64,000 nt of DNA from Asanoa ishikariensis (GTDB taxonomy: Bacteria; Actinomycetota; Actinomycetes; Mycobacteriales; Micromonosporaceae), in NCBI RefSeq assembly GCF_900107455.1, contig NZ_FNQB01000003.1, positions 1,798,001 through 1,862,000 of the forward strand, in the 5' to 3' direction. The notes under the pieces are model-generated. The model was given only the letters and a program-made list of their open reading frames with translations, ran no database searches and was not told where the DNA came from. Both the position numbers and the translations under genes were made by a program. Numbering within the stretch: the first letter of the stretch is position 1; every line of letters starts with the position of its first letter. Shown one piece after another: positions 40,190 through 43,561 of this stretch.

Positions 40190-41530
40190 TCACCCGGTGG
40201 GTTGGTCCGCCCGTCCGAGTGCGACCAGGGCCGCTCCGGTGCATCCCACCTCGGGATCGTCGACGTGCGCCACCTCGCGCGGGGCCAGGGACAGCTCGAA
40301 CGCGCGGCGCCACCACGGTGAGGCGGCGATCGCGCCTCCCCCGAGGGTGACCGCGACCCGATGGTCGACGGTGGACTCCAGGACCTCCAGGTCGCTGAGC
40401 ACCATCGTGCAGACGCCGACCATCAGCCCGGCGAACATCTCGGTGGCGGTCGTGCCGAAGCCAATGTGCCGCAGCTCGCCGGAGCCGGCCGGCGCGGTGC
40501 CCGGTGGCCGGTCACCGCCGAGCCGCGGGTCCGCCACGGCACCCGAGAAGGGCGCGATGCCGGCCAGCGTCTCCTCCAGCGCGGCGCCCTCCGGGAGGCG
40601 CAGCTCACGCCTGGCCCAGGCGAACAGGTTGCCGCCCGCCGAGTAGGCGGCGCCGGTCACCACCCGGTGGTCGTCGACCCGGTAGCGCCAGAGCCGGTGT
40701 GGCAGTGGCGGCAGGGTCGCGCCACGCGGCGCCTGCTGGACCAGCCGCACGGCCGCCGAGGTGCCCACGGTGACGGCGGCCCGGGTCTCGTCGACGCAGC
40801 CCGAGCCGATGTTGGACGCCGCGCCGTCCCCGACGGCCGGCGACCAGCGCGCCCCGGCGAGCTGTGGCCAGCGGCGGGCGTATTCCGGCCGCAGCCGGCC
40901 GTGCCACCCGAGCGGCGCGAGCGTCGGGACCTGCCCGGTGCCGACGCCGGCGATCTCCAGCGCCTCCGGATCCCAGTCCATGGCCGCCAGGTCGAGCATC
41001 CCCGTGCCGGACGCCTGCGACACCGACATCGGCGCCTCCCCGAGCAACTCGGTGAGGATGTATTCCACGAGCCCCGTGTAGCGGGCCGGTGCCAGCCCCA
41101 GGTCGCGCAGCCAGGGCAGCTTGACGGTCCAGTAGAACCGGTGCCACCACGCGCCGGTGCGCTGGTGGAAGGCCTCCGGGTCGAGCGGGCCGGTGGCACC
41201 CTCGGGCGGGGCGGGGCGGGTGTCGAGCCAGGTGACCACGGGGCCGAGCGGGCGGCCGCCACCGTCGAGCGGGAGCACCGAGTGCCACTGCGCGGACGCC
41301 GCGACCAGCCCGATGTCGTCGAGGTGCCCGGCCTCGGCCAGTTCGTCGAGGCAGGCGCAGAGAGCCGCCAGGTACTGGTCGGCGTCCAGCGTCGCGGTGC
41401 CGCTGTCGTCGGCGGCGATCGACAGGTCGAACCCGCGCCGGGCCAACGCGCCGCGGCGGGCGCGCACCTTGTCGTCGAAGACCATCGCGCGCACCGACGA
41501 GGTGCCCAGGTCGAGGGCGAGAACGTTCAT
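40190..41530 (-). CDS. FGGY-family carbohydrate kinase
   Basis: A 446-residue sugar kinase using ATP. The N-terminal phosphate-1 motif is LALDLGTSSVRAMVFD, the sugar-side Trp/Gln contact is in AASAQWHSVLPLD, the second-domain phosphate loop is VTVGTSAAVRLV, and TLGGGAIAASPWWRR is the FGGY signature region. It is shorter than xylulokinase (~500) and nearest to gluconokinase-like members, but the substrate is not certain. ATG 41530 opens with the phosphate motif. It is divergent from the trp-leader/synthase gene with a 64-bp gap to the leader. Confidence 0.88.
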   Translation of the reverse strand: MNVLALDLGTSSVRAMVFDDKVRARRGALARRGFDLSIAADDSGTATLDADQYLAALCACLDELAEAGHLDDIGLVAASAQWHSVLPLDGGGRPLGPVVTWLDTRPAPPEGATGPLDPEAFHQRTGAWWHRFYWTVKLPWLRDLGLAPARYTGLVEYILTELLGEAPMSVSQASGTGMLDLAAMDWDPEALEIAGVGTGQVPTLAPLGWHGRLRPEYARRWPQLAGARWSPAVGDGAASNIGSGCVDETRAAVTVGTSAAVRLVQQAPRGATLPPLPHRLWRYRVDDHRVVTGAAYSAGGNLFAWARRELRLPEGAALEETLAGIAPFSGAVADPRLGGDRPPGTAPAGSGELRHIGFGTTATEMFAGLMVGVCTMVLSDLEVLESTVDHRVAVTLGGGAIAASPWWRRAFELSLAPREVAHVDDPEVGCTGAALVALGRADQPTG

Positions 41531-41558
41531 CGCCCGCCACGGTACCCCGCGAGTTCCC

Positions 41559-41587
41559 TTCCGAATCCGGCACGCAGCCGGTACCTT
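41559..41587 (+). promoter_or_regulatory. Promoter of the trp leader and synthase gene
   Basis: TTCCGA (41559-41564), a 17-bp spacer and TACCTT (41582-41587). The -10 lies 7 nt before the GTG of the leader peptide, which fits a leaderless leader mRNA beginning at 41595. Confidence 0.5.
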
Positions 41588-41594
41588 GGCGACC

Positions 41595-41654
41595 GTGCAC
41601 GCGCGATTGAGCATGTGGTGGCCCGCCGACCCGGCGGCCCACTTCCGCGCGTAA
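41595..41654 (+). CDS. Tryptophan leader peptide (trpL-type)
   Basis: A 19-residue ORF, GTG 41595 to TAA 41652-41654, encoding VHARLSMWWPADPAAHFRA. The two adjacent Trp codons (41616-41621) followed by a P-A-A-H ending closely resemble the actinobacterial trp leader peptides I recall (WWW followed by AHPAAH), reported upstream of a fused trpEG gene in Streptomyces venezuelae. A -10 element 7 nt upstream supports the GTG start; ATG 41613 would give 13 residues. It is placed to stall ribosomes when charged tRNA-Trp is scarce and so control the downstream chorismate-using synthase. Confidence 0.8.
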   Translation: MHARLSMWWPADPAAHFRA

Positions 41655-41684
41655 CCATCCGACGCGGCCGCCCTCGAGGCGGCC
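41623..41684 (+). promoter_or_regulatory. Trp attenuator: three mutually exclusive hairpins
   Basis: Segment 1 CCGCCG (41623-41628) pairs with CGGCGG (41632-41637) inside the leader ORF. Segment 2 GGCGGCC (41633-41639) can instead pair with segment 3 GGCCGCC (41666-41672). Segment 3 can also pair with segment 4 GGCGGCC (41678-41684), which is identical to segment 2, forming a 7-bp stem around CTCGA. A ribosome stalled at the Trp codons (41616-41621) would cover segment 1, favour 2:3 and prevent the 3:4 stop structure. The following sequence is only mildly T-rich. Confidence 0.72.
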
Positions 41685-41737
41685 CGCTTGCCGGTTTCCC
41701 GCTCGACGGCACCCGCCCGAGCCTCGAGGAAGCCGCC

Positions 41738-43561
41738 ATGCAGATCGATCAGCAGCGCCCGTTCGCCCTGGTCCGCCGGGAGGGCGCGGACCACGTCGAC
41801 GTGTACTCCGGACCGGTCCGGACGCTCACCACGCTCGCCGAGCTACCGATCCCCTCGCTCGCCGTCGTCCCCTACCGCCAGATCGCCGAGCGCGGCTTCG
41901 ACGCGGTCGACGACGGCGTACCGCTGGAATGCCTGTCGATCGAGACCCACGACCGGGTGCCGCTCGCGGAAGCCCTCGCGGCGCTGCCCGACGCAGCGGT
42001 CCGGACGGTCGGACCGACCGGCTTCGACGTCACCGACGAGGACTACGCGGCGACGGTGTCGCAGGTGCTGGCTGACGAGATCGGCCGGGGTGAGGGCGCG
42101 AACTTCGTCATCCACCGCGCCTTCACCGCCCGGGTCGAGGGCTCGCCGGTGGCGGCGGCGCTGGCCGCGTACCGCCGGCTGCTGCTCGACGAACGGGGCG
42201 CGTACTGGACGTTCCTCGTGCACACCGGCACCCGGGTTATCGTCGGCGCCTCGCCGGAGCGACACGTCTCGGTCGAGGACGGGCTGGTCATGATGAACCC
42301 GATCTCCGGCACCCACCGGCACGGCTCCGGGGTCGACCTGCTGGAGTTCCTCGCCGACCCCAAGGAGATCGACGAGCTCTACATGGTGCTCGACGAGGAG
42401 CTGAAGATGATGGCCACGGTCGCCGAGACCGGCGGCCAGGTCGTCGGGCCCTCGCTCAAGGAGATGGCGCACCTCACCCACACGGAATATCTGCTGGCCG
42501 GGCGCTGCACCCGGGACGTGCGGGACGTGCTGCGCGAGACGATGTTCGCGCCGACGGTGACCGGCAGCCCGATCGAGAACGCCTGCCGGGTGATCGCGCG
42601 GCACGAGCGGCGCGGGCGCCGCTACTACGCCGGGGTGCTGGCCCTGCTCGGGCACGACGCGCACGGGCGGCAGACGCTGGACGCGCCGATCCTGATCCGC
42701 TCGGCGGAGCTCACCGCCGACGGCGCGCTGCGGGTGCCGGTGGGCGCCACGCTGGTGCGGCACTCGACCACCGCGGGCGAGGTGGCCGAGACCCACGCCA
42801 AGGCGGCCGGGATCCTCGCGGCGCTGGGCCTCGTCCCGGCGCGACCCGGAAAAGGCGTGCCGGTTTCACGGACCGCCGACGCCGAGGTGCAGGCGCTGCT
42901 GGCGGCCCGCAACACGCACCTCGCGCGGTTCTGGCTCGACGAGCGGCCGGACCCGGGTGCGCTGGTGGTGCCGGCGCTGGCGGGGCGGCGGGTGGTCGTG
43001 GTCGACGCCGAGGACACCTTCACCGGCATGCTCGCGCACCAGCTCCGCGCCCTCGGCATGCGCGTCTCCGTGGTGCCGTGGACCGCCCCCGCCTGGGGCG
43101 ACGCGGACCTGGTGATCGCCGGACCCGGCCCGGGCGACCCCACCGACCCGGCGTCGCCGAAGATGGCGGCGATGCGGGCCGTGGTGACCGCGCGCCTCGT
43201 CGACGCCCGCCCGCTGCTCGGCGTCTGCCTCGGCCACCAGATCCTGTCGTCCCTGCTCGGGCTGGGCATGCACCGGCGCCAGGCGCCGTACCAGGGGGTC
43301 CAGCAGGTGGTCGACCTGTTCGGCACACCCCGCCGGGTCGGCTTCTACTCGACCTTCACGCCGACCGCGCCGACCGACTCCCTGTCGTCGCCCTACGGCC
43401 CCGTGGAACTGGCCCGTGCCGCCGACGGCACCGTGCCCGCGCTGCGGGGGCCGACGTTCGCCGGCGTGCAGTTCCACCCGGAGTCGGTGCTCAGCGAGGA
43501 CGGGCTGACGGCGCTGACCGACCTGCTGCTGCACGTGCTCGCCCCGGTCCCATCGGCATAG
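41738..43561 (+). CDS. Fused anthranilate/ADIC synthase with glutaminase domain (TrpEG/PhzE type)
   Basis: A 607-residue fusion. Residues ~1-395 are the chorismate-binding domain (motif MNPISGTHRHG; RRGRRYYAGVLALLGHDA near its end) and ~415-605 the class I glutamine amidotransferase with Cys497 (LLGVCLGHQ), His580 and Glu582 (QFHPES). It forms anthranilate, or 2-amino-2-deoxyisochorismate, from chorismate and glutamine. The order and PISGTHR form are like PhzE, but no phenazine genes are near, and the Trp-codon leader with attenuator points to tryptophan-responsive anthranilate supply. ATG 41738 follows the leader by 83 nt with GAGGAAG upstream. A strong terminator follows. Confidence 0.9.
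   Translation: MQIDQQRPFALVRREGADHVDVYSGPVRTLTTLAELPIPSLAVVPYRQIAERGFDAVDDGVPLECLSIETHDRVPLAEALAALPDAAVRTVGPTGFDVTDEDYAATVSQVLADEIGRGEGANFVIHRAFTARVEGSPVAAALAAYRRLLLDERGAYWTFLVHTGTRVIVGASPERHVSVEDGLVMMNPISGTHRHGSGVDLLEFLADPKEIDELYMVLDEELKMMATVAETGGQVVGPSLKEMAHLTHTEYLLAGRCTRDVRDVLRETMFAPTVTGSPIENACRVIARHERRGRRYYAGVLALLGHDAHGRQTLDAPILIRSAELTADGALRVPVGATLVRHSTTAGEVAETHAKAAGILAALGLVPARPGKGVPVSRTADAEVQALLAARNTHLARFWLDERPDPGALVVPALAGRRVVVVDAEDTFTGMLAHQLRALGMRVSVVPWTAPAWGDADLVIAGPGPGDPTDPASPKMAAMRAVVTARLVDARPLLGVCLGHQILSSLLGLGMHRRQAPYQGVQQVVDLFGTPRRVGFYSTFTPTAPTDSLSSPYGPVELARAADGTVPALRGPTFAGVQFHPESVLSEDGLTALTDLLLHVLAPVPSA

Follow-up and report, generated by a model that had tools for sequence, protein, structure and literature searches.

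A probable ribosome-mediated tryptophan attenuator upstream of a trpEG fusion gene in Asanoa ishikariensis

The leader region and the fused synthase

The stretch of DNA analysed here, 64,000 nucleotides of the Asanoa ishikariensis genome (hereafter the window), contains the gene of a two-domain synthase preceded by a short leader open-reading frame (ORF) with adjacent Trp codons, four short segments able to pair in alternative ways and a putative promoter, all of which can be read directly from the letters (Table 1). An earlier note on this DNA had described a 19-codon leader with two adjacent Trp codons, three competing stems and the reuse of one heptamer in segments 2 and 4. The leader is found where that note placed it, as are the 1:2, 2:3 and 3:4 pairings, and GGCGGCC is present in both segments. 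The note's PAAH motif is likewise there, although FRA comes after it, so that PAAH is not the very end of the peptide.

Table 1. Features of the leader region and the synthase gene (window coordinates)
Feature	Position	Strand	Basis and remarks
Putative promoter, TTCCGA (41559-41564), 17-nt spacer, TACCTT (41582-41587)	41559-41587	+	By eye
Leader ORF, VHARLSMWWPADPAAHFRA then stop	41595-41654	+	GTG start at 41595, TAA at 41652-41654, 19 codons; mRNA probably leaderless
Outer helix (P0), 5′ arm, ACGCGCG	41599-41605	+	Just past the start codon; minimum free energy (MFE) fold, swap tests
Adjacent Trp codons, TGGTGG (n = 2)	41616-41621	+	Read in sequence; adjacent Trp in 75/80 related loci
Segment 1, CCGCCG	41623-41628	+	Pairs with CGGCGG 41632-41637; 1:2 helix cells paired 90.0%
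Segment 2, CGGCGGCC	41632-41639	+	Heptamer GGCGGCC 41633-41639 pairs with segment 3
Outer helix (P0), 3′ arm, CGCGCGT	41646-41652	+	Between segments 2 and 3; MFE fold, swap tests
Segment 3, GGCCGCC	41666-41672	+	Pairs with segment 2 or segment 4; identical in 71/74
Segment 4, GGCGGCC	41678-41684	+	3:4 is the candidate terminator stem, with U-poor tail
Predicted hairpin holding the synthase Shine-Dalgarno (SD) region	41690-41737	+	Fold z -2.72, 1/200 shuffles equally low
Putative fused anthranilate synthase TrpEG, 607 aa	41738-43561	+	Pfam PF00425 (chorismate-binding) and PF00117 (class I glutamine amidotransferase)

Dinucleotide shuffles of 41550-41740 (n = 2000) yielded no leader ORF with adjacent Trp codons (WW), 17 heptamer triples and no case with both, and a search of both strands of the 64-kb window for WW mini-ORFs of 8-40 codons with TAnnnT 5-8 nt before the start returned this leader only. 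The MFE fold of 41590-41740 combines the outer stem with the 1:2 and 3:4 helices (z -2.06, 8 of 200 shuffles equally low), and the Rfam leader families gave no match at gathering score in the window.

The synthase has its best PDB match in 3r74 (E 6e-160), titled 'Anthranilate/para-aminobenzoate synthases component I', which we take to be PhzE, the ADIC synthase of the phenazine pathway, and with which it shares the order of its fused domains; no NCBIfam model scored above cut-off among the 25 listed of the 46 matched. The divergent gene before it encodes an FGGY carbohydrate kinase (Pfam), and the genes downstream look by eye like those of an ABC transporter (ATPase and permease) and of a two-component pair. 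Among the immediate neighbours of the synthase (ORFs by eye, two by Pfam), none was recognisable as a trp or phz gene. The genome also encodes a canonical TrpE (NF010086, 818 bits, cut-off 693), whose ATG overlaps the stop of an upstream ORF (hisI by eye), and no WW mini-ORF was found in the 1500 nt before this trpE or in the 600 nt before trpD. Given this second TrpE with no Trp leader, the main anthranilate synthase may be an enzyme other than the fusion.

Conservation of the leader and its stems

We compared the window with the best 80 of at least 583 confirmed related loci (81 sequences), using a script that required TGGTGG, an in-frame ATG or GTG and TAnnnT 5-8 nt before that start. The script accepted 74 of the 81 sequences, and 75 of these 80 relatives carry an upstream leader with adjacent Trp codons; the WWW leaders of L051 and L053, with TACAGT 6 and 7 nt before ATG, were missed through the length limit of the script. 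In L023 (Pseudofrankia, 2791-2853) the leader VIARMSSWRPATVAAHFFRA keeps the stems with a single Trp codon (TGGCGG), and four of the 80 (L055, L067, L078 and L079) have no leader upstream of the synthase. Five same-genus sequences retain the leader and its stems and begin the leader at the same place, with either ATG or GTG as start codon. The earlier note had named a lack of conserved Trp codons or stems in relatives as evidence against its reading; what we find is conservation of both, segment 2 being GGCGGCC and segment 3 GGCCGCC in 71 of the 74 aligned leaders each, as located by patterns tolerating one or two variant bases. Of the 74 leaders, 60 have their stop codon past segment 2 and 14 ahead of it, so that leaders of the form WWPA-stop and WWPADPAAH...RA-stop both fit the same scheme.

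Across the 74 leaders, paired cells amount to 99.6% for 2:3, 100% for 3:4 and 90.0% for 1:2, and the mutually exclusive stems are thus conserved in the relatives, as far as their sequences tell. The earlier note had also proposed looking for covariation in the three stems, and here the outcome is mixed: conservation is clear, but covariation is small and weak. The covariation score of 1:2 plus 3:4 exceeds all 500 shuffles and that of 2:3 is reached by 23 of 500, but a slide of +3 (for 2:3 also +2) outscores the real register in both cases. Since 2:3 and 3:4 hardly vary, covariation adds little and the helices rest on conservation.

With the RNA cut off before segment 4 and the part hidden by a stalled ribosome omitted, the 2:3 helix (at least 5 bp) appears in the MFE of 74/74 leaders; once segment 4 is added, 3:4 appears in 58/74 and 2:3 in 1/74. 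A ribosome at the leader stop, with an assumed footprint, hides 4 nt or more of segment 2 in 74/74 and touches segment 3 in 24/74, the window among them; in this state, a 3:4 helix of at least 5 bp was found in no more than 49/74.

Placement of TACCTT 7 nt before the GTG, as the earlier note had it, is correct. A stricter sigma-70 scan of 41500-41800 returned no promoter, and the putative promoter is kept in the five same-genus sequences. In all 76 double-Trp leaders, window included (74 by script, 2 by eye), TAnnnT lies 6-7 nt upstream of the chosen start, a count to be read with the fact that TAnnnT at 5-8 nt belonged to the acceptance rule for the 74 and that, among several possible starts, the one with the hexamer was chosen. 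The spacing is 7 nt in 51 and 6 nt in 23 of the 74 script-accepted leaders; as background, 124 of the 17362 ATG/GTG codons of the same sequences, leaders counted in, have TAnnnT at 5-8 nt. Given this spacing, the leader mRNA is probably leaderless, with transcription starting at or next to the GTG at 41595. The passage on Streptomyces lividans trpL1 in PMC8079986 reports that leader, too, as transcribed leaderless.

A probable outer helix and the cassette at other trp genes

The outer helix was assessed mainly by swapping 3′ arms between leaders and comparing pairing energies. Cognate arms beat 5000/5000 permutations in 35 nonredundant trpEG leaders and again in 56 nonredundant leaders of all kinds, and 4999/5000 in 27 leaders of other (non-trpEG) loci, several of which are near copies; this last set derives from 34 inspected loci, 28 of them with a leader, after dropping L177, where segment 3 is absent. 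Among the control segments, the promoter gave 1245/5000 and the downstream segment 4788/5000 permutations equally strong or stronger, and the segment from nt 11 to the Trp codons was weakly positive (136/5000), overlapping the end of the arm.

Other measures are less distinct, and the energy swap test is the only one separating cognate from non-cognate arms. In 45 of the 74 leaders, 75.2% of P0 cells are paired, with slides of -2 and +2 coming near (63.5 and 70.5%), and slides of -3 and +2 outscore the real register in covariation. In the same 45 sequences, none of 500 shuffles matches the covariation score or the number of cells changed on both sides, though pairs changed on both sides are no more frequent than in shuffles (230/500 as high). 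Cognate helices average 6.08 bp and non-cognate ones 5.82 bp, base-shuffled arms often reaching 5-6 bp. Clear single cases are L064 (GUGAUCGCGA/UCGCGAUCAC), L175 and the trpS leader of the window's own genome. The motif GCGCGUA lies past the leader stop in Streptomyces and codes for RA-stop here, and so seems kept as RNA. The swap tests support an outer helix in which the start region of the leader pairs with the RNA separating segment 2 from segment 3, a helix that might serve to limit re-initiation and make termination the default.

A covariance model built from the 74 leaders (R1) gave two matches with E < 0.001 in the window's genome, one in the window (2e-17) and one upstream of trpS (1.6e-6). 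The trpS cassette has the leader MRTLSFLGWWSP (L104, 3510-3472 minus, inside the R1 match G000:C2:2058905-2059009), with TAGTCT before its start and the U-rich terminator tail GTTTCTTT. At 75 fetched R1 loci, which are mostly best matches rather than a random sample, the gene behind the match is trpEG in 43, trpS in 14, trpD in 5 and canonical trpE in 3. The trpD attenuators (L136 to L140) are of the same design, with leaders such as MISRRQGWWPAS, the identity of trpD having been checked by NCBIfam for L137 only. The remaining ten loci are L088, L089-L093 (weak own-genome matches), L103 (contig edge) and L166-L168. We set L088 aside as a trpD case, its match falling at the 3′ end of the genome's own trpD, and L167 and L168, which have no WW leader, look like chance matches.

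L166 has a WW leader (MLLITPAAQGWWPH) and a U-rich terminator with an R1 match near 1501-1602 minus. Two same-genus genomes (G050, with L170 and L171; G084, with L172 and L173) each hold two trpS-like genes with WW leaders of their own. Neither a gene match nor an accepted leader was found at L174 and L178; L176 has a trpS match without an accepted leader, and L177 has a WW leader, yet no segment 3 and no gene match. R1 matched in 136/150 genomes of a family sample (E <= 0.001), the fusion being found in 109/150 (E <= 1e-100), and in 41/396 genomes of a phylum sample, where the weakest matches are doubtful.

Attenuation, its alternatives and known systems

Very probably, then, a ribosome-mediated Trp attenuator controls the trpEG fusion, which would make this locus a Micromonosporaceae member of the actinobacterial trpE type; the earlier note's proposal of an intact attenuator before the synthase is supported by the leader, with adjacent Trp codons in 75 of the 80 relatives, and by the stems and their conservation. 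A ribosome would load on the leaderless 5′ end of a transcript begun at or next to the GTG. When charged tRNA-Trp is short, it would stall at TGGTGG, covering segment 1 and the 5′ arm of the outer helix, and the free segment 2 would capture segment 3 as an antiterminator before segment 4 is made, allowing RNA polymerase to read through. When Trp is plentiful, the ribosome would reach the stop and cover segment 2, so that 3:4 could form and transcription would stop; if the leader were untranslated, the outer helix and 1:2 would form, and again 3:4.

An alternative that we regard as improbable is that control is mainly translational, the SD being sequestered in the hairpin before the synthase and opened by leader translation, and that 3:4 is no real terminator. 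Such a hairpin is predicted, and in swap tests its cognate pairing was stronger than all 5000 permutations, both in the full set of 74 loci and in its 63 nonredundant members, with synthase starts picked by SD strength and a promoter control of 477/5000. The control from the middle of the region also gave 0/5000, however, so that the signal is that of an extended hairpin rather than of the SD alone, and predicted SD accessibility is independent of attenuator state (mean 0.328 vs 0.297; window 0.255 vs 0.258; at least 0.2 more open in 4/74). For this reason we rejected the hairpin as a switch; on these calculations it seems uncoupled from the attenuator. A pairing of the loop sequence CCTCGAGG (41672-41679) with the SD (41722-41729) was also dropped and is not counted as a part, since the second copy of CCTCGAGG differs in all five same-genus sequences. 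Translational control would further suit the U-poor tail behind the 3:4 stem, which has 4 T in 12 nt in the window, 3-5 in the five same-genus sequences and a mean of 2.8 in 26 Micromonospora/Salinispora loci; a scan of 41500-41800 found no U-tailed terminator, and the U-tract that usually, though not by definition, follows a terminator stem is lacking in the window, a point on which the earlier note is silent. Against this, tails are U-richer in the copies of Streptomyces and allies (mean 6.0, 20 loci), Catellatospora (6.8, 5 loci) and Kutzneria (7.0, 3 loci) and in this genome's trpS leader. Frankiaceae (4.0, 3 loci) and Actinoplanes/Paractinoplanes (5.0, 12 loci) average 4 to 5, and L034, L035, L047 and L049 of the 74 were left outside the tail groups. 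With tails this poor in U in the window and in Micromonospora/Salinispora, termination is something we infer, and it is the least certain step for the window copy.

Doubts of another kind concern what the leader senses and what the enzyme makes. One reading is that the stem structure serves RNA stability or processing, without Trp-specific control, and that the WW codons are incidental; L023, which retains the architecture with one Trp codon, speaks for it. Adjacent Trp in 75/80 loci (best 80 of at least 583) speaks against it, as does the recurrence of the cassette at trpS, trpD and trpE, where the peptides otherwise differ, and we regard it as barely credible. A second reading has the fusion make ADIC for a phenazine-type pathway instead of anthranilate for Trp; its match to 3r74 speaks for this, as does the absence of an NCBIfam model above cut-off among the 25 listed of 46 matched. 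As to homology, the earlier note was right to call the fusion PhzE-like, but the phz-cluster homologues fall into a group that does not include the window protein. In a tree of the 81 proteins built by a quick method, one branch (SH-aLRT 99) splits the four from loci without a leader (L055, L067, L078 and L079) from the 77 others, window and L023 included, and 0/500 label shuffles were as clustered. A PhzD gene (1nf9, 'phenazine biosynthesis protein phzD') lies directly upstream at L055, L067 and L079 (E 4e-132, 7e-91 and 1e-104), and L078 adjoins a gene matching class II DAHP synthase below cut-off. With the four that lack a leader forming one tree group, and phzD next to three of them, the leader thus goes with the TrpEG group and is not found in the phenazine-type group. 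Together with the neighbourhood of the window gene, in which no phz gene was recognised (ORFs by eye, two neighbours by Pfam), and the Trp leader itself, this makes an ADIC synthase very improbable. The tree and the occurrence of the same cassette before trpS, trpD and trpE support a role of the fusion in Trp synthesis, and its product would be anthranilate for that pathway.

A tryptophan attenuator before trpE is reportedly known from S. venezuelae (Lin, Paradkar and Vining, 1998), and the Streptomyces loci among the best 80 of at least 583 relatives show the same leader before the same fusion gene. The window differs from these in having WW instead of WWW, in continuing from PAAH to FRA-stop, which places GCGCGUA within the coding sequence rather than past the stop, and in its U-poor tail (4 T in 12 nt, against 6.0 on average). 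Its likeness to S. lividans TK24 trpL1 (MFAHSTRNWWWTAHPAAH) extends, in the passage of PMC8079986 concerned, to adjacent Trp codons with PAAH, a leaderless transcript, a monocistronic trpE and two hairpins, a uridine-enriched stretch being reported there. As with the trpS attenuators of Streptomyces (S. lividans trpL2, S. avermitilis trpS2), trpS in the window's genome has the cassette, whereas the target gene in the window is a different one; trpL2 has one Trp codon and, according to the same passage, is still filed as an attenuator without a uridine-enriched sequence downstream (PMC8079986). The Corynebacterium and Streptomyces trp attenuators treated in the relevant passage of Seliverstov et al. 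2005 (PMC1262725) share with the window a classical leader peptide, antiterminator and terminator and the gGCC-rGCy-GGCC triples; poly-U tracts follow all terminators there, in which the window differs, and the genome list in that passage contains no Micromonosporaceae.

By title and start of abstract of the papers listed, with subscription papers mostly outside this scope, we found no literature on Micromonospora trp attenuators, an actinobacterial trpD attenuator or the outer helix. The actinobacterial trpE attenuator as a kind is already known, and the locus looks like an ordinary and well-conserved example of it, to which the present analysis would add the outer helix, the copies at trpD, trpS and trpE and the U-poor tail. 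With slightly less than even confidence, we put forward the outer helix as an undescribed fourth element common to actinobacterial trp attenuators. Joining the region around the start codon to the RNA that separates segment 2 from segment 3, it would close off the leaderless 5′ end, and it would admit only the first co-transcriptional ribosome to the leader, with termination as the default outcome. A single cassette would, on this view, govern a dispersed regulon (trpEG, trpS, trpD and trpE), working with a U-poor terminator in Micromonospora and the window's genus.

As a probable trp attenuator, the locus would extend to Micromonosporaceae a textbook switch known among actinobacteria from Streptomyces and Corynebacterium, with one attenuator cassette found at several unlinked trp genes. 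The regulation would link a PhzE-like enzyme family to Trp synthesis, aiding annotation, and the outer helix suggests, in a form open to testing, how translation of a leaderless leader ORF might be held to a single round.
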